Shown here: piece by piece, positions 11,544-26,001 of the stretch
Numbering within the stretch: position 1 is the stretch's first letter
Layout: each line of letters opens with the position of its first letter
Source of the DNA: Pelagicoccus sp. SDUM812003
Lineage (GTDB): Bacteria > Verrucomicrobiota > Verrucomicrobiia > Opitutales > Opitutaceae
Direction: 5' to 3'
Length of the DNA stretch: 64,000 nt
Assembly (NCBI RefSeq): GCF_031127815.1
Contig: NZ_JARXHY010000002.1
Coordinates: 310,001 to 374,000 of the forward strand
Made by a program: the position numbers and the translations under genes
Notes under the pieces: model-generated
The model's input: the letters and a program-made list of their open reading frames with translations, nothing else
Told to the model about the DNA's origin: nothing
The model's database searches: none

Positions 11544-12512
11544 ATGAAACGCATCGTCATCGCAGGCGGAAACGGATTTCTGGGTCAGACCCTCACCCGC
11601 TACTTCAATAGCAAATCCTGGGAAGTCAGCATCCTGACTCGACAGCCGCTCTCGCTCCCCTTTCCCGCCAAACAGGTGAAATGGGACGGCGAGTCCATGG
11701 ACGATTGGGCCAAGGAACTCGAAGGCGCCGACGCCTTGATCAATCTATGCGGCAAGTCCGTGAACTGCCGATACACCGAAGCCAATCGAGAGGCCATACT
11801 GCAAAGCCGCCTCAAGTCGACTTCCGTATTGAAAAAAGCCCTACAGGCAGCGAACGACCCGCCTCCCGTCTGGCTCAACGCCAGCAGCGGCACGATCTAC
11901 CAGCACAGTCTGCACACCCCCATGGACGAGAGCACCGGGACCTTCGGCGAAGGATTCTCCGAAAACGTGTGCAAGGCCTGGGAGAACGAATGCTTCAGCG
12001 ACGACCTACCCCGCACCCGACGCATCGCCATGCGCACCAGCATGGTTCTCGGCGATGGCGACAACAGCGTCTACCCAGTGCTGGCTCGCCTCGCCCGCTG
12101 GGGACTGGGGGGTAGAATCGGGGCCGGAAAGCAGCTCGTCAGCTGGATCCACGAGCTCGACTTCGCCCGCGCCGTCACCTTTCTCATCGAAGACCACCAA
12201 ATCGAAGGCCCGGTCAATATCACCGCTCCCGCTCCCGCTCCCAACAGCGTATTCATGAGCACCCTACGCAACAGCCTTGGCTCCCATTTCGGACTCGTTC
12301 ACTACCGGCCCATCCTGGAGGCCGGGGCGTTCCTACTGCGAACCGAAAGCGAGCTGGTGCTGAAAAGCCGGTACGTGCTGCCGGAGATCCTGCTCAAGCG
12401 ACGCTTCGTCTTCGCCTTCCCCTTTCTCGACGAAGCCCTGTCCGACCTGAGAGATTCTCCAAGCTTCAGCCTCCAGCCTTGCCCCGCCAAGGACCCGATC
12501 GCCAACGCCTAA
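11544..12512 (+). CDS. TIGR01777-family NAD(P)-dependent epimerase-like protein
   Basis: A 322-residue short-chain-dehydrogenase-like protein. It has a Rossmann motif at the N-terminus (IVIAGGNGFLGQTLTRYF), ADALINLCGKSVNCRYTEANR and NASSGTIYQHS typical of the TIGR01777 family. The C-terminal DUF1731 segment ends in PFLDEALSDL. Related proteins are called YfcH or sugar-nucleotide epimerase-like; the substrate is unknown. The usual Tyr-x3-Lys catalytic pair is not obvious, as is common in this family. Start ATG 11544. Confidence 0.9.
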   Translation: MKRIVIAGGNGFLGQTLTRYFNSKSWEVSILTRQPLSLPFPAKQVKWDGESMDDWAKELEGADALINLCGKSVNCRYTEANREAILQSRLKSTSVLKKALQAANDPPPVWLNASSGTIYQHSLHTPMDESTGTFGEGFSENVCKAWENECFSDDLPRTRRIAMRTSMVLGDGDNSVYPVLARLARWGLGGRIGAGKQLVSWIHELDFARAVTFLIEDHQIEGPVNITAPAPAPNSVFMSTLRNSLGSHFGLVHYRPILEAGAFLLRTESELVLKSRYVLPEILLKRRFVFAFPFLDEALSDLRDSPSFSLQPCPAKDPIANA

Positions 12513-12591
12513 ACGCCCAATCGATCGAAACGGAGCCGAACCAAGCGAAAAAACCGAGCCGAAGATCGCTGAAAAACGAGCAGTTTCCACT

Positions 12592-12641
12592 CGTCTAGCG
12601 AACTAGAACGCTCCTTTTCGCCCAAAATGGGCCTTTTGGGC
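12592..12641 (+). terminator. Two consecutive stem-loops between the epimerase gene and the guanidine locus
   Basis: First stem: TCTAG (12594-12598) with CTAGA (12603-12607) closing a CGAA tetraloop, followed by CTCCTTTT. Second stem: GCCCAAAA (12620-12627) with TTTTGGGC (12634-12641), a perfect 8-bp inverted repeat. Together they could end transcription from the epimerase gene before the sigma-54 promoter. A canonical T-run is missing, so the role is inferred. Confidence 0.4.
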
Positions 12642-12655
12642 TGGCCCAAGAGGCG

Positions 12656-12671
12656 TGGCACGCTGGCTGCT
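12656..12671 (+). promoter_or_regulatory. Sigma-54 (RpoN) promoter of the guanidine transporter operon
   Basis: TGGCACG at 12656-12662, four bases, then CTGCT at 12667-12671. GG (12657-12658) and GC (12669-12670) are exactly 10 bases apart, as sigma-54 requires; only the first T of the TTGCW element differs from consensus. Expected transcription start is about 12682, giving a leader of about 60 nt to the ATG at 12746. Sigma-54 control fits a nitrogen-source operon. No NtrC-type upstream site was recognised. Confidence 0.7.
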
Positions 12672-12692
12672 TACGAATCACGTGAATCGTAA
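12671..12692. promoter_or_regulatory. 22-bp palindrome centred on CACGTG
   Basis: TTACGAATCAC (12671-12681) faces GTGAATCGTAA (12682-12692); the arms differ at one position only. It begins at the last base of the -12 element and overlaps the next operator by four bases (12689-12692). It would cover the predicted transcription start, so a bound protein would probably repress. The binding protein is unknown. Confidence 0.45.
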
Positions 12693-12716
12693 TACGTTTC
12701 TCTCTAAACGTATTAC
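12689..12716. promoter_or_regulatory. 28-bp operator with NikR geometry, transporter promoter
   Basis: Perfect inverted arms GTAATACGTTT (12689-12699) and AAACGTATTAC (12706-12716) around CTCTCT. Read as NikR-type half-sites it is GTAATA, 16 bp, TATTAC, the same 28-bp layout as the E. coli NikR site (GTATGA, 16 bp, TCATAC). The same architecture recurs at 18411-18438 before the NikR-like gene. Its position downstream of the sigma-54 start predicts repression. Confidence 0.7.
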
Positions 12717-12745
12717 TCATCTCGAAACCTGATCGACCACGTGTT

Positions 12746-13741
12746 ATGAAGTTCTCTCGTCTCGCAGCCCGCGCCGCAGCCCTTGTCGCTGCACCTCTCG
12801 CCCTCCTCTCAACTTCCTTAGCCGAACCCTTGAAAATCGGCTATTCCGACTGGCCAGGCTGGGTGGCCTGGGAAATCGGCATCCAGAAGGGCTGGTTCGA
12901 GGAAGAAGGCGTGGACGTCGACTTCCAGTGGATGGACTACGTCGCCTCCATGGACGCTTACGCAGCCGGACTGCTGGACGCGGTCACCATGACCAACGGC
13001 GACGCCTTGGTCACCGGCGGCACTGGAAAGCCATCCGTTGGCATCATCATCAACGACTTCTCCAACGGCAACGACATGATCGTCGCCGCTCCTGGCATCG
13101 ATTCGCTGGCCGACCTAAAGGGCAAGAAGATCGGCCTAGAAGAGGGCTTCGTCATCCACCTGCTCCTCATGAAGGGCGCTGAAGCGGCCGGCATCGATCC
13201 GGACGAATTCACCATCGTGAATACGCCGACCAATGAAACGCCTCAGGTGCTGGCATCGGGCGCCGTGGACGCCATCGGAGCTTGGCAGCCGAATTCCGGT
13301 CAAGCCCTCAAAACGGTCGCCAACTCCAAGCCGGTTCTCACGTCCGCGGACGTTCCTGGCGTCATTTACGACCTTCTCTTCGTCGATCCGGAAAGCTTGG
13401 AAAAGCGTCGCGACGACTGGATGAAGGTGGTCAAGGTCTGGTACCGCATCGTCGACTTCATCAAGGATGAGGAAAACATCGACGAAGCCCTGGAAATTCT
13501 CGCCGGCCGCGTAGCCATTTCTCCCGAGGAGTACGAACCGTTTTTCGGAGGCACCTATATCCTGAGCCTCGAGGAAGCGCTCCCCATCTGGGAACAGGCA
13601 GAGGGACTCAAGTCGGTCTACGGATCGACCGTGATTTCGGACGAGTTCAATGTATCCATGGGAGTATACGAGGAGCCTCTCAATACCATCCAGTACCTCG
13701 ATCCGAGCCTCACCAAAGAGTACGCCGAGTCCGTAAAGTAG
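12746..13741 (+). CDS. ABC transporter substrate-binding protein, urea/guanidine carboxylase-associated
   Basis: A 331-residue periplasmic binding protein with a signal peptide ending near LSTSLA-EP. It belongs to the NMT1/TauA-like fold: [32 protein letters not shown] at the start, [22 protein letters not shown] in the first lobe and [21 protein letters not shown] at the hinge. A subfamily of these proteins (TIGR03427, recalled from memory) is found beside 'urea carboxylase' genes, and the same genes lie downstream here. The likely ligand is guanidine or a related N-rich compound. It is first in the operon, behind the sigma-54 promoter and operator, with no good Shine-Dalgarno sequence. Confidence 0.88.
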
Positions 13742-13784
13742 GCGCTCAGCAATTTTGTCACTCCCTCTTCCCCTCTTTCGAAGG

Positions 13785-13804
13785 CGGGCCAAAGCCCCGG
13801 CCCG
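13785..13804 (+). terminator. Intra-operon stem-loop
   Basis: CGGGCC (13785-13790) and GGCCCG (13799-13804) form a 6-bp GC stem, followed by TCTTCTTTATG. It lies between the binding-protein and permease genes. Such stems often protect or partly terminate transcripts so that the binding protein is made in excess; that role is inferred. Confidence 0.45.
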
Positions 13805-13863
13805 TCTTCTTTATGTCCACACCCAGCCTTATCCTCCTCTGAGTTCGATACTCTCGCGTCCAC

Positions 13864-15255
13864 ATGACCGAACGAAAAAACCGCGCCAAGGGATCTAGCC
13901 CTTGGTTCGCCATACGAAAGGACCTCGACGCCAAGCAGCGCCTCGCGCTGAGCGTCCTCTCCTTCGTCCTCCCATTGGCCGCCTGGGCCTTTGTTAGCTA
14001 TACGCCTTTCATCTGGCATCCCGACATCAAACTTCAGATCTCCGCGGACCGCAGCGACGTCACCACGGTCTATACCGCGGGAGACCATCTCTCCAAAACC
14101 TACTACCCGGAATTCGTCGCCGCCATCCGTTCGGACAATGAGAAGATCCTCGCCGAACGAGCTTCCGGCCATGCCGAAGGAAACGGTTTCGCCACTCGGA
14201 GAGCGAATGTGAAGATTATGCGGCATATTTCCGACGCCGCTATCGCCAACAAATGGCTGACCCGCGAAGAAGCAAAGGAGGACGAAAACCTGTACGAAAT
14301 TTGGCGCGGCGTGGCCGAGGGCAAGCTGCGGGGAACGAAGGTCAAGTTCAGCGACGAGAACCGCGCTATCATCGAGCGAAACTGGGCTCTCATGTCAGCT
14401 AGCTCCCCCACCTTCAACTCCCGCGACCTGCCGGAGACGCCGCTTGAGAAACTCGTGCCGCAGGGCATCTCCGCCAACCCGGTCTACCTTCCCGCTCCGC
14501 ATGAGGTCGTGATCAAGGGCATTCAGGATTTCACCTTCGAGTCCGAAGACGACAAGCCCTCCATGTTCGAGCGCTACAAGCACTCGCTTCGCATCGTCTT
14601 CTCCGGCTTCCTGCTGGCGGCGGCGATCGGCGTTCCTCTCGGCGTTCTCTGCGGCACTTTCGACTTTTTCTCCAAGCTCTTCGAGCCCTTCATCGACTTC
14701 TTCCGCTACATGCCAGCCCCCGCCTTCAGCACCTTGCTGGTGGCCGTCTTCCTGGCCCACGACGCCCCGAAGATCGCCCTGGTGTTTGTCGGCACCTTCT
14801 TCCAGTTGGTCCTGGTGGTCGCCAATACCACTCGCCAGCTTGACCGCTCCTTGCTCGAAGCGGCCCAGACTCTCGGAGCGAAAAACCTGACTCTGATCCG
14901 CCGCGTCATACTGCCTGGCATCACGCCCAACCTCTACAACGACATGCGAATCCTGCTGGGCTGGGCGTGGACATGGCTGGTCATCGCCGAGCTCATCGGA
15001 GTCAAAAGCGGTCTGACCGAGTTTCTGGAAACCCAGGGTCGCTGGCGAAACTTCGATAGCGTTTTCCCCATCATCATCCTGATCGGCATGTCCGGATTCG
15101 TCACCGACCAATTCCTTTCCTCGCTGCGCAAGTACCTCTTCCCATGGACGCCTGAAGCGTCGGAGAAGAAACACGGAGTCATTGGCCGCTTTATCCTCTG
15201 GCTGGTAGACCGCAAAGCCTACAGCACACCCTTGAACGGAGGAGCGAAGTCATGA
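13864..15255 (+). CDS. ABC transporter permease with large extra N-terminal domain
   Basis: A 463-residue permease, much longer than the roughly 260 residues of TauC/SsuC relatives. After a first membrane helix (about 21-41, [16 protein letters not shown]) comes a soluble insert of about 180 residues. The BPD_transp_1 membrane domain follows (about 235-430), with the coupling segment [26 protein letters not shown] carrying the EAA motif. The insert, with one helix before it, is most likely periplasmic and may help capture substrate. The stop overlaps the ATPase start (ATGA), so the two are translationally coupled. Confidence 0.85.
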
Positions 15256-16154
15256 GCGATTCACTGAACCTGCCGAGCTACAAGGAGCAGAGCGAGGCCG
15301 TCAAAGCGCGCTTCGCCGACATCTACAAGCGCCCCATCAAGCTGGAAGTCGAAGGCCTCAGCAAAAGCTTCACCACCGCCAAGGGCACCGTCGACGTGCT
15401 CAGTCCGATCAGCTTCAACGTGCATCGACGCGAGTTCATATCCGTCATCGGCCCATCAGGCTGCGGCAAGTCGACCTTGATCCGCATGCTGGCGGGATTG
15501 GAAACCCTCTCTGGCGGCACCTTCCTGCTCGATGGCAACGAGCCGAGCGGACCGGGGGCCGACCGCGGCATGGTTTTCCAGGGCTACACCTTGTTTCCCT
15601 GGCTGAGCGTGAAAAAGAACGTCATGTTCGGCCTGGAAGTTAACGGCCGATCGGGCGCCTCGGTGGAGCAAGAGGCCATGCAGTGGATCGATCTGGTCGG
15701 TCTTTCCCACGCCGCAGAGAAGTATCCAAGCCAGCTTTCGGGCGGGATGAAGCAACGCGTCGCCATCGCCCGCTCGCTGGCCAACCAGCCGCAGATCCTC
15801 TTCATGGACGAGCCGTTCGGGGCCTTGGATCCGCACACCCGCAGCCACATGCAGGCTCACTTGCTGCAGATCTGGCAAAACGTCGACGTCACCATCATGT
15901 TCGTCACGCACGATCTCGACGAAGCCATCTACCTCTCCGATCGCATCCTCGTCCTCAAAGCGAATCCCGGCGAGATCCAGGAGTTCGTAGAGGTGCCTGT
16001 CCCTCGACCGAGAAAACCGGAGCAACTGCTCAGCCCGGAATTTCTCGCGACCAAGCTGCGCCTCGAAGAACTGATCCATCCCAAGAAAACCGAAGACGAA
16101 GCAGAGGACCTGCCGATCGTTCGCATGACCGGCGTCGACGACGAAGTCGAATAA
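15252..16154 (+). CDS. ABC transporter ATP-binding protein (TauB/SsuB-like)
   Basis: A 300-residue ATPase. Walker A is GPSGCGKST, the Q-loop is in [10 protein letters not shown], the signature is [15 protein letters not shown], Walker B is [12 protein letters not shown] and the switch His is in [11 protein letters not shown]. It is slightly longer than its relatives, with an acidic tail. ATG 15252 overlaps the permease stop and has the strong ribosome site GGAGGAG about 7 bases upstream. It energises uptake by the permease and binding protein encoded just before. Confidence 0.92.
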
Positions 16155-16162
16155 TCCATAAA

Positions 16163-16948
16163 GTGAATACGACGGCGTCAGCGCATTGGGAAGAGCTCAC
16201 CTGGGAGGAGATCAGCGACCTGATCTCCTCCGGCACGGATGCCGCGATTCTCCCTATTGGAGCGACCGAACAACACGGCCCGCAACTCACGGTGGGCATG
16301 GACTCCTTGCTGGGACGTCACCTCTGCGCCAGCGTGGCCCAAAAAACCGGTGTACCCACCCTACCGCTTCTTCCCTACGGCTGCTCGCTCGGGCACTCCC
16401 ACCGGTGGCCTGGTACCCTGGCCCTCAGTCCCCAGACGCTCATCTCCGTCGTTACCGACATCGCCGACTGGCTCTACCCAGCCGGAATCCGCAAGCTCTT
16501 CCTCGTCAACTCCCACGTCACCAACGAAGCCCCGCTGCGCTGCGCCCTGGAAATTCTCAGAGCTCGCTACGACGACCTTTGTATCGCTCTCTTCAACACA
16601 GGAAAGCTCACTCCCGAGATCGCGGCGACCTTTTCCGAGGACGCCGACGATTGGCACGCCAACGCCGCGGAAACCAGCCTCGTGCTCCATCTCGCACCCT
16701 CCTCCGTCCGCGCCGATAAGCTTGCCAGTTCCGACGATCCCGATCGCACCGGCGGCTGCGTTTTCTCCCATCCGGTGAATCGCACCAGCCTCAACGGCGT
16801 AACTGGATCCCCTAGCCAAGCGACCGCCGAAGCCGGCAAGACCCTCTACCAGCGTCTCGAAAAAGAGCTCGTTTCACTGATCAAAACAGGGCTCAGCGAG
16901 ACACCGCCCCTGGAAAATTCCTACTTCCGAAATCCCGAAACCGCATGA
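16163..16948 (+). CDS. Divergent creatininase-family amidohydrolase
   Basis: A 261-residue protein. GTG 16163, eight bases after the ATPase stop, is chosen because it gives the usual N-terminus, [13 protein letters not shown]; the frame remains open upstream but only as a shadow of the ATPase gene. Family motifs are [19 protein letters not shown] (Glu, His and Asp metal ligands), [13 protein letters not shown] and [13 protein letters not shown]. The usual NGHGGN loop reads NSHVTN, so activity may be altered or the substrate unusual. The family opens cyclic amides or amidines (creatinine and others). Within a guanidine locus, hydrolysis of a substituted or cyclic guanidine is a reasonable guess. 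The stop overlaps the next start (ATGA). Confidence 0.78.
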
Positions 16949-18375
16949 CCGCTCTCTCCAGCATCTACCAATCTCATAACAAAGCTCGCGGCTTTATTTA
17001 CGAAGAGTCGTATCCATGGACCAACGACCAGCTAAACGCCATCCAGAGCAAGCTAGCGGAGGCTGGGGTTAAGTATTGCGTCGGCTCTTACGTCGACCTT
17101 CATGGCACGCCAAAAGGCAAGTTCGTCCCACTCTCCCATTTCGAGCACTTCGCCCACGGCTCCGAGCTCTACACCGGCTACGCCCTAGACGGCCTGGGAC
17201 AAGCGCCCAACGACGACGAAATCGCTTCCGTGCCCGATCTCGGCATGATTATTCCACTTCCATGGAATCCAGAGGTAGCTTGGATTCCTGCCGACAACAC
17301 CTTGCACGACAAGCCCTATGAGGTGAACGCTCGCGTCATCCTGCAAAAGGTGCTCAAGGAGGCCAAGGAGCTGGGCTTCGGCATGAATCTCGGCATCGAG
17401 TGCGAGCTCTTCGTCGTGAAACAGAACGAGGACGGCACGATCCAAATTCCGAATACGGACGACAACCTGACCAAGAGCTGCTACGACATCAAGCGCTTCA
17501 TGGATCGCTACGACTGGCTGGACAAGATGGCCACCTCCATCGACGACCTTGGCTGGGGGCTCTATTCCTTCGACCACGAAGATGCCAACTCGCAATTCGA
17601 GTTCGACTTCAACTACGCCGACGCCCTCACCATGTGCGACCGCTTCACCTTCTTCCGCATGATGGCCAAACACTACGCCAGCGAAGAAGGCTTGCTCGCC
17701 ACCTTTATGCCCAAGCCGTTCGCCGACAAAACCGGCAGCGGGGCCCATTTCAACATGTCGCTCTACGATCTAGAGACCGGTGAAAACCTCTTCAAACGCC
17801 CGCATTCCGAAGACCCGCGCGGACTCGGGGTCACCGAGCTGGCCTATCAGTTCATCGCTGGCATCCTCAAGCACGGCCCCGCCCTCTGCGCCACCTTCGC
17901 ACCGACCGTCAACAGCTACAAACGCCTGGTGCGCCGCGGTCTCATGGCCTACTACTCCTGGGCACCTGTATTCAATTCCTACGGACGCAACAACCGCACC
18001 AATTCCCTGCGCGTCCCCATGTCGGGCGGTCGCGTGGAATCCCGCAACGCCGACGCCGCCTGCAACCCGTATCTCGCCGCGGCCCTCGCCCTCGCCGCCG
18101 GACTGGAAGGCATCAAAGAAAAGCTCGATCCGGGAAATCCGCAGGAGGTCAACCTTTACGAGCTTTCGCCCTCGGAAATGCAGGAACGCGGCATCAGCGA
18201 ACTGCCCACGACACTCAAAGAGGCAGTCAACGCCTTCGCTTCCGATCCCTTCACCCGCCAGACCCTCGGCGACACCCTTTACAACGAGTTTGTCACCTAC
18301 AAATCCGAGGAGTGGCGTCAATATCACCAAAGCATCGCCCAATGGGAGATCGATAGATACGCCCGCCTCTACTAA
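16945..18375 (+). CDS. Glutamine synthetase-like ligase (GlnT/GMAS type)
   Basis: A 476-residue member of the glutamine synthetase superfamily. The beta-grasp N-terminus ([21 protein letters not shown]) is followed by the catalytic barrel with metal and ATP motifs [52 protein letters not shown] and the Glu-bearing [20 protein letters not shown]. All main catalytic elements seem present. The sequence resembles the short rhizobial GlnT group and gamma-glutamylmethylamide synthetase more than GlnA. It could recapture the ammonia released by guanidine breakdown, or join glutamate to an amine. The start overlaps the creatininase stop, so it belongs to the same operon. Confidence 0.82.
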
Positions 18376-18410
18376 CCCCAAGAAAATCCTTGCCGAAACC
18401 CACCAGAAAG

Positions 18411-18438
18411 GTATTACGTTTTTTGTATTTCGTAATAC
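18411..18438. promoter_or_regulatory. 28-bp operator with NikR geometry, autoregulatory position
   Basis: Inverted arms GTATTACG (18411-18418) and CGTAATAC (18431-18438) enclose a T-rich centre. As half-sites it is GTATTA, 16 bp, TAATAC: the same 28-bp span as the site at 12689-12716. It ends two bases before ATG 18441, so a bound repressor would cover the start region of its own gene. Confidence 0.7.
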
Positions 18439-18440
18439 TT

Positions 18441-18893
18441 ATGGACCTAGAAGAAATGAACGACCCAGCGGAACGCGTCAGTATCACTATACCACGCTCT
18501 GTGCTCGCTAAGTTTGACAGCATGCTCGCTCAGCGCGGCTTCGCCAATCGTTCCCAGGCCATCACGGAAATCCTCAACCGGGAAATCATCGAGGCCAGCA
18601 GCGATCAGGAAGACCAGGTCATGGCTGGCACCATCACCCTGTTCTACAATACGCGTCGCAACAATCTATTGGGCACCCTGAGCAAGATTCAACGCAAGCA
18701 CCTCGCCGAAGTCATCAGTTCGCTCCACGTCCAGCTAGAGAATGACCACATCATGGAAGTCCTAGTGGTTCAAGGCCCCTCGCAAACGCTCCGATCGATC
18801 GCCAACGAGCTCATCACTTGCAAAGGCGTGAAAACCGGCAAGCTCAACCTGTCCTCCACCATCATGCCGCCTCTTCACCAGAAGCAGTCCTAA
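18441..18893 (+). CDS. NikR-like ribbon-helix-helix regulator lacking nickel ligands
   Basis: A 150-residue protein with the NikR layout: an N-terminal ribbon-helix-helix ([22 protein letters not shown], then [14 protein letters not shown]) and a C-terminal ACT-like tetramerisation domain ([37 protein letters not shown]). Aligning with E. coli and H. pylori NikR by eye, the four nickel ligands His-His-His-Cys become R85, H96, Q98 and I104. High-affinity square-planar nickel binding is therefore unlikely. ATG 18441 (or 18456) is preferred because an upstream ATG would place the 28-bp operator inside the gene. Its location between the transporter block and the carboxylase block suggests it is the local repressor, with a nitrogen compound as effector. 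Confidence 0.85.
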
Positions 18894-18919: not shown

Positions 18920-19636
18920 ATGTCACACATTCACGAAGAAACCCTCTCCCACTCCGGCATGTGGTCCAAGGTCATCAAGCGCGGCCGTTCGCTCAGAATC
19001 ACCGACATCGAAGGCGGAGCCAACGTCGGCATGCTGCTCTACAACGCCTACGAGAAGCAGGAACGCTACAACATGCCCGACACCCTCAAGGGCCAGCACA
19101 TCTTCTACCTCAAAGCCCCCTTCTGCATCCACTCCGACATGGGCCGGCTGTTCGCGGCGATCACTGAGGATACCTGCGGATGGCATGACACCGTTTGCGG
19201 AACTTCAGACGCCAAGTCGATTGAGGCTCAATACGGAACGGGCGACTATCAAAGCCTTCGCAACGACTTCTATCGAAATGGACGCGATTGCTTCCTGATC
19301 GAACTCGCTAAATGGGGCCTCGGAAAACGCGACCTCGTGCCGAACATCAACTGGTTCTCCAAAATCGTCTCCGATGAGGAGGGCAACTTGAGCTACGTCG
19401 AAGGGAACTCCAAAGCCGGCGACTACCTAGAGCTTCGCTTCGAACTGGATACCTTAGTCGTTCTCAACACTTGCCCGCATCCGTTGAATCCAAGTTCCGA
19501 ATACAGACAGAAACAAGTCAAGCTCACCATTTCCGAGGCGACGTCCGTTTCCGCTGAAGATGCGTCATTGCAGATTCGCCCTGAAAACCTGAGAGCCTAC
19601 CAGAACACCGCCACCTACAACGCTCTCCGCTTCTAA
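18920..19636 (+). CDS. DUF1989 protein, carboxyguanidine deiminase subunit (urea carboxylase-associated protein 2 type)
   Basis: A 238-residue DUF1989 protein. Motifs: [23 protein letters not shown] near the start, the metal-site segment [11 protein letters not shown], a middle [11 protein letters not shown], and the C-terminal [15 protein letters not shown]. Two such proteins form the heteromeric carboxyguanidine deiminase (CgdAB), which converts carboxyguanidine to allophanate and ammonia. The length fits the family formerly called urea carboxylase-associated protein 2. ATG 18920 lies 26 bp after the regulator stop. Which subunit is A or B I cannot fix from sequence alone. Confidence 0.85.
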
Positions 19637-19752: not shown

Positions 19753-20388
19753 ATGCTTAAAGAATCTCCACTCAATCCCGCGGACGCCGTCTACCGCCAA
19801 GTGATCAAAGCGGGCGACCACTGGACCCGCCTCATCAAAAAGGGCCAAACCTTCCGTATTCTCGACCTCGAAGGTAACCAAGCCGCGGATACGCTTTTCT
19901 ACAACGCCCACGACCCGGTCGATCGCTACAGCGCCAGCGATACCATTCGCTTGCAGCGTAACCTCTACCTCACCACCGGAACCAAGCTCATCTCCACCGC
20001 AGGAAACGAGCTGCTCGAAATCACCGCCGACACTTGCGGACGTCACGACACACTGGGCGGAGCCTGCTCCCGCGAGTCCAACACCATGCGCTACGCCCTG
20101 GAAAAGGAACACATGCACGCCTGCCGCGACAGCTTCATTTGCGGACTACACGAACACAACGACGACCTCGGCAAGCGCGACATCACCTGCAACATCAATT
20201 TTTTCATGAACGTCCCCGTAACTCCCGAAGGCAAACTCACCTTCGCAGACGGCATCAGCGCCCCCGGCCGCTATGTGGAGATGGTTGCCCTCATGGACGT
20301 CATCGCTCTTATCTCGAACTGCCCGCAGCTCAACAATCCCTGCAACGCCTACAACCCGACCCCCGTCGAAGCCATCATCTGGGATTAG
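19753..20388 (+). CDS. DUF1989 protein, carboxyguanidine deiminase subunit (urea carboxylase-associated protein 1 type)
   Basis: A 211-residue paralogue of the preceding protein. It shares [25 protein letters not shown], the metal-site motif [40 protein letters not shown] and the end [19 protein letters not shown]. The partly matching Cys and His positions in both proteins fit a complex in which one or both chains bind zinc. It acts between guanidine carboxylase and allophanate hydrolase, whose genes follow directly. Start ATG 19753. Confidence 0.87.
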
Positions 20389-20390
20389 CT

Positions 20391-20469
20391 CCCACGAATC
20401 TCACCAATTTTCAAGAATTGGCTCATATCATTTCAAAATAAATTCGTGCCCATTCGTGGAATTCGTGGG
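20391..20469. repeat. Intergenic palindromic repeat (copy B)
   Basis: The outer arms CCCACGAAT (20391-20399) and ATTCGTGGG (20461-20469) are perfect inverted repeats. Inside are CACCAATT, a further inverted pair CAATT/AATTG, and AAATTCGTGCCCATTCGTG. The same elements in the same order are found at 24134-24191. It sits between deiminase and carboxylase genes in one operon, so it would be transcribed and could fold into a long hairpin. Confidence 0.7.
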
Positions 20470-20493
20470 CGAAAAAACCTCTCCAACACTCCC

Positions 20494-23400
20494 GTGTTTA
20501 CCAAAGTCCTCATAGCCAATCGCGGCGAAATCGCCTGTCGCATCATCAAAACCCTTCGCAAAATGGGTGTGACCTCGGTGGCGATCTATTCCGACGCCGA
20601 CAAGTTCGCCCGTCACGTGGAGCTAGCCGATGAAGCGATCCACATCGGTCCCGCTCCGGTTAAACAAAGCTACCTCAATACGACGGCCATTCTCCAAGCA
20701 GCCAAGTCCAGCGGAGCGCAAGCCATCCATCCTGGCTATGGACTGCTTTCGGAAAACGCCGACTTCGCCACGGCGGTCGAGAAAGCGGGTCTCGTTTTCA
20801 TTGGTCCCACTCCGGAGCAAATGATCAAATTCGGCCTCAAGCACACCGCTCGCGAGCTGGCCATCGCGAACAACGCTCCGCTCCTCCCAGGTAGCGATCT
20901 CTTGGATACACTGGACGATGCGAAATCCGAAGCCGACCGAATCGGCTACCCGGTCATGCTAAAGTCGACCGCCGGCGGTGGCGGTATCGGTATGACCCTC
21001 TGCTGGAGCAAAACGGAACTGATCAAAGCCTATGATTCCGTGAAGCGCCTTGGAGAAAACAACTTCGCCAACGCCGGCATCTTCCTGGAAAAGTTCGTGC
21101 AGCGAGCCCGCCACATCGAAGCCCAGGTTTTTGGCGATGGAAAAGGCAAAGTCATCGCTCTGGGCGAACGAGACTGCTCCGTTCAACGTCGAAACCAGAA
21201 AGTCATCGAAGAAACGCCTGCTCCAGCCATCTCGCAGGAGCAGCGTACCGAGCTTCTCAATACCGCCGTGCGCCTAGCGAAAGCGGTCAACTACCGTTCA
21301 GCTGGCACGGTCGAGTTCGTCTACGACGTCGACGCTTCCCAATTCTACTTTCTGGAGGTCAATACGCGACTACAGGTCGAGCATTGCGTCACCGAAGAAG
21401 TCACCGGGGTCGATCTCGTGCAGTGGATGATCGAGCTAGCTGCGCAGGAGATGCCAGACCTCGATACTTTGAAAATAATACCATCCGGGTCCGCAATCCA
21501 AGCCCGCGTCTATGCAGAGGACCCAAACAAAACCTTTCAGCCCTCTTCCGGTCTGCTCACCGAAGTTCGCTTCCCCGATTCGGTCCGCGTCGACACCTGG
21601 ATCGAAACGTCCACTGAGGTTTCCCCGTATTACGATCCTCTGTTGGCCAAGATCATCGTCAAGGCGGACAACCGGTCCAGCGCTATCGACGCGCTCGCCT
21701 CGGCCTTGGCCGACTCACGCGTCGAGGGCATCGAAACCAATCTTGAATACCTGGAAAACATCGTCGCGTCCGATGTATTCAACCAGGCGCTACACACGAC
21801 GAAATTCTGTGATTCGCTCAAATACGAGCCTCATTCGATCGATGTGATCGAAGCGGGCACCCAAACCACGGTTCAAGATTATCCCGGTCGCGTAGGCTAT
21901 TGGGACATCGGCGTTCCTCCGTCTGGTCCCTTCGATTCCTACGCATTCCGCATGGGCAACAAGTTGTTGGGCAATCCCGACCAAGCCGCCGGCCTGGAAA
22001 TCACCGTCACCGGCCCCACGCTTGTCTTCAACCATGCCACCACCATTGCCCTAACAGGAGCCCCCACCAACGCGACACTCAATGGCGAAAGCGTGCCGTT
22101 CTGGACGCCTATTCAAATCAAGGCTGGCGACGAACTCGCAACTGGAAAAATAACCGAAAACGGCTGCCGTGCCTACCTGGCGGTCCAGGGCGGACTGGAT
22201 GTTCCCGACTACCTCGGAAGCAAATCAACCTTCACTTTAGGCCAGTTTGGCGGCCATTGCGGCCGAACCCTCATGCCAGGCGACGTGTTGCACTTCAACC
22301 ACCCGGCGCTGGGCAGCGATGAAGAAACGCGTTCCGAGTCCAACCTACAGGCTTTGGAGGAAACCCTTCCGTCCCAGATTCCAAACTACGGTCATCATTG
22401 GGAAATCCGAGTGCTCTATGGTCCTCATGGAGCGCCCGACTTCTTCACCGACGAGGATATTGAAACCTTTTTCGATACTCGATGGGAGGTACACTACAAC
22501 TCCGCTCGCACCGGGGTTCGTCTCATCGGTCCGAAACCCAAATGGGCTCGCGCCGACGGTGGCGAAGCGGGCCTCCATCCCTCCAACATCCACGACAACG
22601 CCTACGCCATCGGCGCCATCGACTTCACTGGAGACATGCCGGTAATCCTCGGACCTGACGGCCCCTCTCTCGGCGGTTTCGTCTGCCCGGCTACCATCAT
22701 AAAAGCCGACCTGTGGATGATGGGACAACTCAAGCCAGGCGACACCATTCGCTTCACCAAAGTCGACCAAACGACCGCCACGAGGCTAGAAGCGGCGCAG
22801 GAGCAGGTATTCCAAGGTAGGGCTGGATCGCCGAGCCAGCCGCAGTTCCCATCTTCCCGCTACGGCACCGAAGACGCCATCCTCGAAACCATCCCCGAGC
22901 AGCCAGTCCTCGATCGCCCTTCCGTCTGCTATCGTCGCTCTGGCGATAAGTATCTCCTCGTTGAATACGGCGAAATGAAGCTCGACCTGAACCTACGGTT
23001 CCGAGCCCACGCCTTAATGGAAGCCGTCAAATCTGCCGATATTCCAGGGATTCTAGAGCTCACGCCAGGCATTCGGTCATTGCAAATTCACTACGAAAGC
23101 TTGCAGATTCCGCTCGATGAGCTTGTCGACAAGCTCAAGATCATCGAAGACGTGCTTCCTCCCATCACGGAGATGACAGTGCCGACTCGCACCGTTTGGC
23201 TGCCGCTTTCCTGGGATGACGAAGCGACCCAGCTAGCGATCAAGAAATACGAATCGGTTCGCAAAAACGCTCCTTGGTGTCCGAGCAATATCGAGTTTAT
23301 TCGCCGTATCAACGGATTGGATTCAATCCAAGATGTAAAAGACATCCTCTTCAACGCCAGCTACCTGGTGATGGGCTTGGGTGACGTCTACCTTGGCGCG

Positions 23401-24129
23401 CCCGTCGCCACTCCAGTTGACCCGCGTCACCGCCTCGTCACTACGAAGTACAACCCCGCACGCACCTGGACTCCGGAAAACGCAGTCGGCATTGGCGGAG
23501 CCTACCTCTGCGTGTATGGAATGGAAGGACCTGGCGGCTACCAGTTTGTAGGACGCACCGTGCAAATGTGGAATCGCTACAAACAGACCAAGGATTTCAA
23601 AGAAGGAAAGCCCTGGCTGCTCCGTTTCTTCGACCAAATCCGCTTCTACGAAGTCTCCGCTAAGGAGCTCTTGAAGATGCGAGAGGATTTCATCCACGGA
23701 CGCTTCGAGCTGAAAGTCGAAGAGAGCGAGTTCAATCTTGCCGACTACAATCGATTCCTAGCGGACAACGACAATTCCATCAAAACCTTCAAAGCCAAGC
23801 AACAGGCAGCCTTCGACGCCGAACGCCAGCGTTGGATCGAAACCGGCCAAGCCACCTTCGTGGCCGATGAATCTGCAGGAGCACTCGCCGTAGAAGATGA
23901 CATTCCCGAGGGCTGCTCTCCCGTTCAGAGCCATGTCCCTGGCAGCGTATGGAAAATCTGCGTACAGGAAGGCGACAAAGTGAAAAAAGGAGACACTCTC
24001 CTCGTGGTGGAATCCATGAAAATGGAAATCAACCTCACCGCTCCCACCGACGCCACCGTGGAAAAACTGCTAGCCGAAGAAGGCTCACCCACCAAAAAAG
24101 GGCAAACCCTCGCAATTTTGAGAACCTAA
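20494..24129 (+). CDS. Guanidine carboxylase (urea carboxylase family)
   Basis: A 1211-residue biotin-dependent carboxylase from GTG 20494, the usual start ([16 protein letters not shown]); an in-frame GTG at 20446 lies inside a repeat and is less likely. The order is biotin carboxylase (about 1-450; [37 protein letters not shown]), two carboxyltransferase halves (about 460-1075) and a biotinyl domain with K1176 in [10 protein letters not shown]710 in GAIDFTGD appears to match the Asn of yeast urea carboxylase that is reported as Asp in guanidine carboxylases. Together with the paired DUF1989 genes, this supports ATP-dependent carboxylation of guanidine rather than urea. Confidence 0.88.
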
Positions 24130-24133
24130 ACCT

Positions 24134-24191
24134 CCCACGAATCACACCAATCTTCTCGAATAAATTCGCGCCCATTCGGGTCATTCGTGGG
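24134..24191. repeat. Intergenic palindromic repeat (copy C)
   Basis: The outer arms CCCACGAAT (24134-24142) and ATTCGTGGG (24183-24191) enclose CACACCAAT, TTCTCGAATAAATTCG and CGCCCATTCG. It is a shorter version of copy B lacking about 20 central bases. It occupies almost the whole gap between carboxylase and allophanate hydrolase genes. Confidence 0.7.
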
Positions 24192-24201
24192 CAATCCTCT
24201 C

Positions 24202-26001
24202 ATGAACATTTCTTTCGACATCACCACCCTCCGCGAAGGCTATCTCGCTGGCGACTACACTCCTACAGATATCATTCGCGAAGTCCTCTCCCGCATCGAC
24301 GCGGGCGACTCCAAAATTTGGATATCCGTCGATTCCGCCAACCGTCTCCTTGAGCAGGCTGCCAAACTCGAAACGAAAGATCCAGCCTCCCTACCTCTCT
24401 ACGGTATTCCCTTCGCAGTGAAGGACAATATCGATGTAGCGAATCTCCCCACCACTGCGGCCTGTCCAGACTACCGCTATTTCGCCTCCAAGGATGCCTA
24501 CGTCGTCGCCCTGCTTCGGACCGCCGGCGCTATTCCAATCGGCAAAACCAATCTCGATCAGTTCGCCACGGGATTGGTCGGCGTCCGTTCGCCCTACGGC
24601 GTGCCAAGCAACGCCTTCAACCCTGATTACATCCCTGGCGGATCCAGCTCCGGTTCCGCCGTATCCGTCGCTCTGGGACAGGTATCCTTCTCTCTCGGCA
24701 CCGATACCGCTGGCTCAGGGCGAATTCCAGCCTGCTTCAACAACCTGATCGGCCTCAAGCCCTCCCGCGGGCTCTTCTCCAACCGCGGAGTGGTCCCCGC
24801 TTGCAAGTCGCTAGATTGCGTATCCGTTTTCGCATACAATGCAGCGGATGCCCAAAACGTTTTCCGCATCGCTGCTTCCTTCGACCAACAAGACGCCTAC
24901 AGCCGAGCGAACCCCACTGAACTCGCCGACACCCAAAAGGTTCACCGAAATGATCTACGGATGGGCGTTCCACTGCCGCATCAGCTGCAGTTTTTCGGCG
25001 ACGAGGATTACCAAAACCAATACCTCGCGGCCGTGAAGCGGCTCGAAGGGCTCGGCTACCAAAGCAAGCTGATCGATATCGAACCGCTGCTCTCCGCCGC
25101 CCGACTGCTTTACGAAGGCCCATGGGTTGCGGAGCGCTACTGGGCCATTCGAGAACTCATCGAAACCGTCCCAGATTGTCTGCATCCGACCACTCGTGCC
25201 ATCATCGAAAAGGGTATCGAAGGCACCGCCGTTGACGCCTTCGACGCGGCCTACAAATTGCAGGCCTTCAAACAGACCTCAGAGACGATCTGGCACGAGG
25301 TCGACTTTCTGGCCACTCCCACCGCGGGCACCCACTACACTATCGCCGAAGTCGAGGCGAATCCCATCCAATTGAATTCAAATCTCGGATACTATACCAA
25401 CTTCATGAATCTGTTGGACATGTGTTCCGTCGCCACCCCTACCGGATTCACGCCGAAAAAGCTTCCCTTCGGCATCACCCTCATCGCTCCCGCTTTTCAC
25501 GACGAAAAACTTCTGGTTATCGCGGACCGACTTCAGCAAGCGAGCGAGCTTCCACTTGGAGCCACCGAAAACAAACGCTACGGGTCCCTCAAAGCGCCTT
25601 CCTACGACAGCTTGCCCATTCTGGTCTGTGGCGCCCACATGAGCGGGCTTCCACTCAATCACCAGCTCACCGAGTTGGGCGCTGTATTCAATCGCTCCAC
25701 ACGGACCGCGTCCGCCTATCGCCTCTACGCCCTACCCGGAACGACGCCGCCCAAGCCTGGCATGATCCGCGATGCGGAAAACGGATCCGCTATCGACGTG
25801 GAGATCTGGGACCTGCCCAAAGGCCAATGGGCCGCCTTCATCGCCCAGATTCCCGCCCCGCTCGGCATCGCAAACATCGAGCTCGCTGATGGCTCTTTCG
25901 TAAAAGGCTTCTCCTGCGAAGCCTGGGCAGTTGAAGACGCGAAAGAGGTCACCCAGCATGCAAGCTGGAGGACATACCTCGAGACGGTTCAGGAAGTTTA
26001 G
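24202..26001 (+). CDS. atzF: Allophanate hydrolase
   Basis: A 599-residue amidase-signature enzyme. The Ser-cisSer-Lys triad is visible: K74 in FAVKDNIDV, the cis-Ser in PGGSSSGSAVSVA (about 149) and the nucleophile S172 in GTDTAGSGRIPA. The C-terminal domain (about 475-590, starting LPILVCGAHMSGLPLN and holding GFSCEAW) is the allophanate-hydrolase-specific domain that decarboxylates N-carboxycarbamate. It produces ammonia and CO2 from allophanate, the last step of the pathway. ATG 24202 is preferred over the in-frame GTG at 24187, which lies in the repeat. Confidence 0.93.
   Translation: MNISFDITTLREGYLAGDYTPTDIIREVLSRIDAGDSKIWISVDSANRLLEQAAKLETKDPASLPLYGIPFAVKDNIDVANLPTTAACPDYRYFASKDAYVVALLRTAGAIPIGKTNLDQFATGLVGVRSPYGVPSNAFNPDYIPGGSSSGSAVSVALGQVSFSLGTDTAGSGRIPACFNNLIGLKPSRGLFSNRGVVPACKSLDCVSVFAYNAADAQNVFRIAASFDQQDAYSRANPTELADTQKVHRNDLRMGVPLPHQLQFFGDEDYQNQYLAAVKRLEGLGYQSKLIDIEPLLSAARLLYEGPWVAERYWAIRELIETVPDCLHPTTRAIIEKGIEGTAVDAFDAAYKLQAFKQTSETIWHEVDFLATPTAGTHYTIAEVEANPIQLNSNLGYYTNFMNLLDMCSVATPTGFTPKKLPFGITLIAPAFHDEKLLVIADRLQQASELPLGATENKRYGSLKAPSYDSLPILVCGAHMSGLPLNHQLTELGAVFNRSTRTASAYRLYALPGTTPPKPGMIRDAENGSAIDVEIWDLPKGQWAAFIAQIPAPLGIANIELADGSFVKGFSCEAWAVEDAKEVTQHASWRTYLETVQEV

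Follow-up and report, generated by a model that had tools for sequence, protein, structure and literature searches.

A NikR-family regulator without its nickel site belongs to a group that accompanies guanidine genes in two phyla and may sense guanidine

We propose that the guanidine locus of Pelagicoccus sp. SDUM812003 is governed by a NikR-derived repressor that holds guanidine import and use down until guanidine relieves it, and that this repressor is a member of a guanidine-devoted group of proteins; we put the probability of this reading at about 0.6. The locus lies in a 64,000-nucleotide stretch of contig NZ_JARXHY010000002.1 (positions 310,001 to 374,000), here called the window, and all window coordinates below are counted from its first base. 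Comparisons of domains, predicted structure and gene neighbourhoods show a regulator that keeps the NikR domains and predicted fold, that has lost the nickel site, and whose group travels together with the guanidine pathway in two phyla. A sequence-only reading of this DNA had already suggested a repurposed NikR belonging to a guanidine locus, and both the loss of ligands and the neighbourhood surveys support that idea. The same comparisons go beyond that reading in placing the regulator in a single widespread group, with putative sites before both the importer and the regulator. Our literature search, made in a limited library, found no NikR-type regulator of guanidine genes.

The regulator gene (18441-18893, plus strand) opens with ATG and encodes 150 amino acids with a single terminal stop. 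Domain, sequence and fold searches all recover a ribbon-helix-helix (RHH) DNA-binding domain joined to the NikR_C regulatory domain, in agreement with the NikR fold first read from the sequence. Pfam gave NikR_C at 6.5e-22 and RHH_1 slightly above its cut-off, NCBIfam gave PRK04460 (NikR) above cut-off, the nearest PDB sequences in the search were the nickel-responsive regulators 2bj1 (3.5e-26) and 1q5v (1.3e-13), and NikR entries head the PDB fold search made with the predicted monomer (pLDDT 86). No other NikR_C match in the genome exceeds the cut-off. The nickel ligands of E. coli NikR are H76, H87, H89 and C95 (PMC7055735, in part). HMMER places R85, H96, Q98 and I104 of the window protein at these four columns, and MAFFT concurs, exactly as the first reading had it; alignment with E. 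coli NikR does not restore the site, and one ligand of the four is kept. Since PRK04460 is a curated model that scores above its cut-off here, the name 'nickel-responsive' that it confers is not to be trusted at face value. Judged by domains and by site geometry, the window regulator is a member of the NikR fold family and is not a nickel-responsive NikR.

The ten genes of the locus share the plus strand, and gene calls confirm that the regulator sits between a transporter block and a deiminase/carboxylase block. Upstream are an NMT1-like ABC transporter substrate-binding protein (SBP; 12746-13741), related to TIGR03427 below cut-off, the transporter permease (13864-15255) and ATPase (15252-16154), both recognized by Pfam/NCBIfam, a creatininase-family hydrolase (16154-16948, start provisional; TIGR04448 below cut-off) and a type III glutamate-ammonia ligase-like (GS-like) protein (16945-18375; TIGR03105 above cut-off). 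Downstream, domain matches identify two DUF1989 proteins, UAAP1 (CgdA; 18920-19636) and UAAP2 (CgdB; 19753-20388), as carboxyguanidine deiminase subunits, followed by a guanidine carboxylase of the TIGR02712 family, labelled urea carboxylase in the searches (20446-24129), and, again from domain matches, an allophanate hydrolase (24187-26001), both with provisional starts. No gene for nickel uptake or a nickel enzyme adjoins the regulator, which is flanked by genes of guanidine import and carboxylation. The placement of creatininase-family and GS-like genes between importer and regulator, at 16154-18375 in the window, is seen also in many relatives, in both phyla.

That the substrate is guanidine can be read from the carboxylase. 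Its Asp726 aligns with Asn1330 of urea amidolyase chain 5i8i, which we take to be the K. lactis enzyme, and a second Asp falls at position 1584 (counted along 5i8i alignments, for the window only). Guanidine carboxylases are recognized by two Asp residues, 1330 and 1584 in K. lactis numbering (PMC11410670, in part). With both residues present, the locus should serve guanidine rather than urea, and the window carboxylase is accompanied by the two DUF1989 subunits and the allophanate hydrolase of the guanidine carboxylase pathway. Across relatives, Asp at 1330 was found in 106 of 106 readable carboxylase loci, and in 76 of 76 after dereplication.

The 28-bp sites noticed in the sequence proved to be real. 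One palindrome, GTAATACG-N12-CGTATTAC (12689-12716), lies 29 bases 5' of the SBP ATG and is a putative operator of the importer unit; the other, GTATTACG-N12-CGTAATAC (18411-18438), lies 2 bases 5' of the regulator ATG and is a putative operator of the regulator and catabolic unit. They are the only two perfect matches to GTAWTACG-N12-CGTAWTAC in the 5.75 Mb genome, where the reversed control has none. At up to three mismatches the window has three matches against 0.10 expected, among them a weak 28-bp site with three mismatches (12668-12695) that overlaps the first palindrome and may be chance. Genome-wide, that threshold gives 12 places against 17 for the reversed control, so that only the perfect pair stands out. 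A sigma-70 promoter scan of 12500-18600 returned no sites and was uninformative. Because of where the two palindromes lie, we think it very probable that the window protein is a repressor of its guanidine locus.

The loss of ligands goes with the gene neighbourhood. We surveyed 387 Verrucomicrobiota genomes, 134 of which had a match, yielding 140 places besides the window; flanks were taken for 78 of these, mostly the best-scoring. Guanidine genes stood within about 9 kb of 37 of the 78 places, and all 37 proteins lack the ligand Cys, although in one of them, the truncated copy L088 (genome G254), the reading of the Cys column is unreliable. Of the 41 places with no guanidine genes nearby, 40 read HHHC at the ligand columns; the exception, L072, is an HHHY fragment from a genome (G085) with no CgdA match. 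A second survey took 398 Pseudomonadota genomes around a Methylobacillus genome, chosen regardless of guanidine genes, and found 49 places in 47 of them. Nine of the places belong to guanidine or importer units, and none of these nine has the Cys; 37 of the remaining 40 are HHHC, and three weak matches (L220, L222 and L223) are something other than either type. L220 and L222 form a ligand-less NikR-like Pseudomonadota pair with LSPA or LSPS at the ligand columns and a His-rich tail, and we found no guanidine genes near them; L223 is a diverged NikR-like protein with NLCR at those columns, beside an SBP_bac_5-type ABC transporter.

Third, a scan of named genomes, made with a 13-sequence alignment, gave 413 relatives, the best 80 of which comprise 39 from Verrucomicrobiota and 41 from Pseudomonadota. 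The Cys is absent from 80 of these best 80; the search peptide begins one column past the Cys column and is typical of the guanidine-locus group, so this count does not sample all NikRs. Among the same 80, CgdA, CgdB or the carboxylase lies within 10 kb at 72 loci; six more have two or more genes from the importer/GS/creatininase unit, and two have neither. Homologues without the Cys thus sat by guanidine genes or the importer unit in all three sets, at 37 of 37, 9 of 9 and 78 of the best 80 of 413 places, an outcome that favours the sequence-only reading, which consistent nickel transport or urease neighbours would have refuted. The sets overlap, seven loci of the two phylum surveys sharing identical proteins with the scan; with all sets pooled, the ligand Cys occurs in none of 117 distinct group proteins, and 77 of the 81 other NikRs surveyed keep all four nickel ligands. 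For the ligand-less proteins we reject a setting of nickel or urease genes; what was seen around them was guanidine or importer genes. CbiM or CbiQ genes were found beside three of eight HHHC loci (L062, L070 and L076; 10 neighbouring proteins tested).

Viewed from the pathway, 45 Verrucomicrobiota genomes have CgdA (TIGR03425), and 38 of these, the window's included, have the regulator at the same locus, in some cases several kb from CgdA (for example L045 and L053). The other seven have a locus with no regulator match and no guanidine riboswitch detected there; these loci, of regulator-less guanidine carboxylase genomes, are L229-L234 and L239. A plasmid collection held 41 records with a match, and the two inspected carry the entire locus, with the regulator annotated as CopG family. 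Locus L177 of Methylobacillus arboreus (genome G754), on the same contig as L163, has the importer, creatininase-family, GS and regulator genes and no CgdA match genome-wide, pointing either to another guanidine route or to another substrate.

We then counted the 28-bp sites in a set dereplicated at 90% identity that comprises 95 loci of the group and 66 of the nickel type, with the window added in the strict count. Strict half-sites at a total length of 28 occur upstream of the regulator in 30 of 96 regions and upstream of SBP in 30 of 70; at other lengths from 20 to 37 they occur in at most four regions each, and the coding control has 0 of 95 at 28 and up to two at other lengths. Before nickel-type regulators, 11 of 66 regions have a strict 28-bp site. 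When one mismatch is allowed, the two phyla differ in which genes the site precedes. In Pseudomonadota it is found before SBP in 29 of 30 regions, the regulator in 5 of 39, UAAP1 in 0 of 32 and the carboxylase in 0 of 29; the Verrucomicrobiota counts are 24 of 38, 38 of 56, 7 of 55 and 0 of 51, respectively. Nickel-type regions have 18 of 65, all shuffled controls combined have one, and away from 28 bp the highest counts are 11 of 56, for a length of 29, and 6 of 30, for a length of 34. A recognizable site at this tolerance is absent from 18 of 56 regulator and 14 of 38 SBP regions in Verrucomicrobiota and from 34 of 39 regulator regions in Pseudomonadota. Counted by locus, at least one site precedes the regulator or SBP at 48 of 56 loci in Verrucomicrobiota and at 32 of 39 in Pseudomonadota. 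We regard the predicted DNA-target logic of the regulator as well supported at the sequence level.

Guanidine genes are usually described as riboswitch targets, and the first reading had set a protein here against that picture. We rejected a riboswitch in the window, which has no match in Rfam at gathering scores, hence no guanidine riboswitch, and none with R1, a local guanidine-II model trained on 14 RNAs, to which the 33 Pseudomonadota carboxylase loci discussed below contributed nine. Rfam found no guanidine riboswitch in 21 further Verrucomicrobiota regulator loci either. Genome-wide scans of the 45 CgdA-bearing Verrucomicrobiota genomes, the window's among them, run with stricter filters under which weak matches are lost, found guanidine-I in none and guanidine-II in five, away from the regulator locus. 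Those five (L224-L228) directly precede SMR-like ORFs, recognized by eye, and their genomes also carry the regulator-type guanidine locus.

Pseudomonadota are different. At Rfam scores, guanidine-I or guanidine-II is present in 11 of 22 regulator loci scanned, and R1 found a guanidine-II-like RNA at 30 of 33 carboxylase loci, versus 0 of 33 in Verrucomicrobiota; nine of the 30 are in-sample, and the rest include weak hits, with E as high as 0.0026. We checked the place of 33 R1 hits, and every one is on the same strand as the carboxylase or UAAP1, at the 5' end of that gene. We took as noise the antisense R1 hits in L141 and L148, as well as a weak one in L154 (4176-4222, E 0.024) that lies some 520 bases 5' of SBP. 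In L144, L145 and L154 an importer-regulator unit is opposed to the catabolic unit: the former has the palindrome (one mismatch), and the latter has guanidine-I (Rfam) and guanidine-II (R1) with no palindrome 5' of UAAP1. The importer and deiminase genes of enterobacteria are reported to have a guanidine-I riboswitch (PMC12186494, in part), so the palindrome in these three loci occupies the place that an RNA holds elsewhere. The general pattern is that in Pseudomonadota the importer has the palindrome and the carboxylase or deiminase begins with a guanidine-II-like RNA; in Verrucomicrobiota the palindrome often also stands 5' of the regulator-catabolic unit, and the scanned loci have no guanidine riboswitch. 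The contrast of riboswitch with protein holds for the Verrucomicrobiota loci scanned, but a simple replacement of one by the other is rejected for Pseudomonadota, where both occur.

We suggest the following mechanism. When guanidine is absent, the regulator would occupy both palindromes and repress the importer unit and the regulator-deiminase-carboxylase-hydrolase unit, its own gene included. A pathway compound, most likely guanidine, would bind to the regulatory domain, at the former metal site or close to it, and cause the DNA to be released. In NikR, nickel promotes DNA binding, so this polarity would be the reverse. The regulator would thereby fill, at guanidine genes, the role that riboswitches have elsewhere. 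Riboswitches of types guanidine-I and guanidine-II stand at importer/deiminase and carboxylase/hydrolase genes and so share with the regulator its target genes and the signal expected here, but they are RNA and the regulator is protein. It is because of these shared targets that we infer relief by guanidine as the ligand, and we lean slightly towards direct sensing of guanidine by the regulator itself.

A possible objection is that the regulator controls the guanidine locus in answer to some other signal, such as nitrogen status (glutamine or 2-oxoglutarate), allophanate, carboxyguanidine, or another importer substrate that the creatininase-family and GS-like genes would process. Most Pseudomonadota carboxylase loci already have a guanidine-II-like RNA, so there the protein need not sense guanidine. 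The unit of importer, creatininase-family, GS and regulator genes occurs with no adjacent deiminase or carboxylase at six of the best 80 of 413 loci (some at contig ends), G754 has the importer unit and regulator with CgdA nowhere in the genome, and in the window a GS-like gene adjoins the regulator. However, nine genomes have the regulator with no adjacent CgdA, and CgdA is found elsewhere in eight of them; many loci with no creatininase or GS genes nearby keep regulator, importer and carboxylase; and at the scanned Verrucomicrobiota loci, with no guanidine riboswitch, a guanidine pathway blind to guanidine would be odd. We consider another signal unlikely, while giving it more weight than any other alternative to guanidine-relieved repression.

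To place the group, we built a maximum-likelihood tree of 85 dereplicated rows with the ligand columns removed, omitting L072, L088, L220, L222, L223, rows under 125 residues and rows more than 70% identical to a kept row. The 41 rows from guanidine or importer loci form one side of a branch with support 100/99 that is present in 100% of 200 bootstrap trees, and the guanidine-locus trait changes once on the tree. Because the link between ligands and context is thus one change, the context counts given above are not independent events. With a midpoint root, on which the placement of the group among nickel-type NikRs depends, its sister is a set of nine HHHC proteins (100/98). The first rows to split off within the group are four of HHHY/HSHY type, which look like an intermediate. 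The Pseudomonadota rows fall into two separate branches among Verrucomicrobiota rows, several forks being unresolved, a pattern that suggests transfer between phyla. On balance we favour, by a little, a history in which the metal site was lost once and a metalloregulator became a protein guanidine sensor that shares its job with riboswitches in Pseudomonadota and does it alone in Verrucomicrobiota.

The group has its own near-fixed residues that differ from nickel types, including M61 (88%), E90 (89%), L109 (97%) and Q111 (100%), and in the tail P143 (100%), P144 (90%) and H146 (73%). R32 is at 100% in the group and also at 45% in nickel types. His at position 71 falls from 97% in nickel types to 32% in the group, and His at 72 and 132 (74% and 67% in nickel types) is outside the four commonest residues of the group. 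On the DNA-binding side, the group keeps R12, S/T14 and S/T16 of the strand that presumably contacts DNA, together with R37-S38. E90 and Q111 are no more than candidates for pocket residues. We dropped E100 as a universal acidic pocket residue; it is invariant in the first 13 sequences and replaced by M, T, A or others in many Pseudomonadota.

These same columns bear on whether the regulator could still be a metal sensor with an altered site, taking another metal, or nickel through weaker ligands, and tying the pathway to metal supply. Some members would allow it, since the HHHY branch has three His and a candidate oxygen ligand, and the HHHT and YHHT forms retain two or three His alongside Thr. 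The Cys is nevertheless missing from all 117 distinct members, the window protein has one ligand of four, the further nickel-type His (71, 72 and 132) are reduced, and the nickel-dependent enzyme of guanidine degradation is guanidinase, not the carboxylase of this locus (PMC12186494, in part), all of which makes metal sensing very improbable. Slightly less probable again is that the repressor needs no ligand and does no more than regulate itself, or that the protein is a NikR in decay whose neighbourhood is hitch-hiking: across the group the column of E. coli H76 holds many different residues (R, H, Y, C, F, G, V, S and A) and a few copies are broken (G254/L088 truncated, G085/L072 a fragment), but the group-specific near-invariant residues, the sites held at one length in two phyla, and the persistence of the gene with its pathway through rearrangement (for example L045, L053, L144, L145 and L254) all speak against it.

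The guanidine-relieved repressor that we propose is best understood beside NikR itself. With the NikRs of E. coli, P. horikoshii and H. pylori it shares the ribbon-helix-helix and NikR_C domains and the same predicted fold, and, at the level of sequence, the operator plan of two short inverted half-sites in a total of 28 bp. Unlike NikR, the window protein has three of its four nickel ligands replaced and the group members read without Cys, the group adjoins genes for guanidine import and degradation, its half-sites are usually GTAWTAC, and it has an added PP[LIV]H-type tail. DUF156, a family and fold other than NikR, resembles the present case in that one of its members, among metal sensors, responds to something other than a metal. 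It comprises the metal sensors RcnR, InrS and CsoR along with the formaldehyde sensor FrmR (PMC5016687, in part), and the E. coli NikR operator set against ours above is GTATGA-N16-TCATAC (PMC7055735, in part).

The part of a 2025 review available to us (PMC12186494) names riboswitches as the only known guanidine receptors besides transporters and enzymes. The group described here offers a concrete and widespread candidate for a guanidine-sensing protein, with its predicted sites mapped, in a role hitherto credited to RNA switches. If the proposal is true, it would be a clean case of a metal sensor keeping its DNA-target geometry while exchanging its signal, and protein and RNA control would be interchangeable on identical genes.
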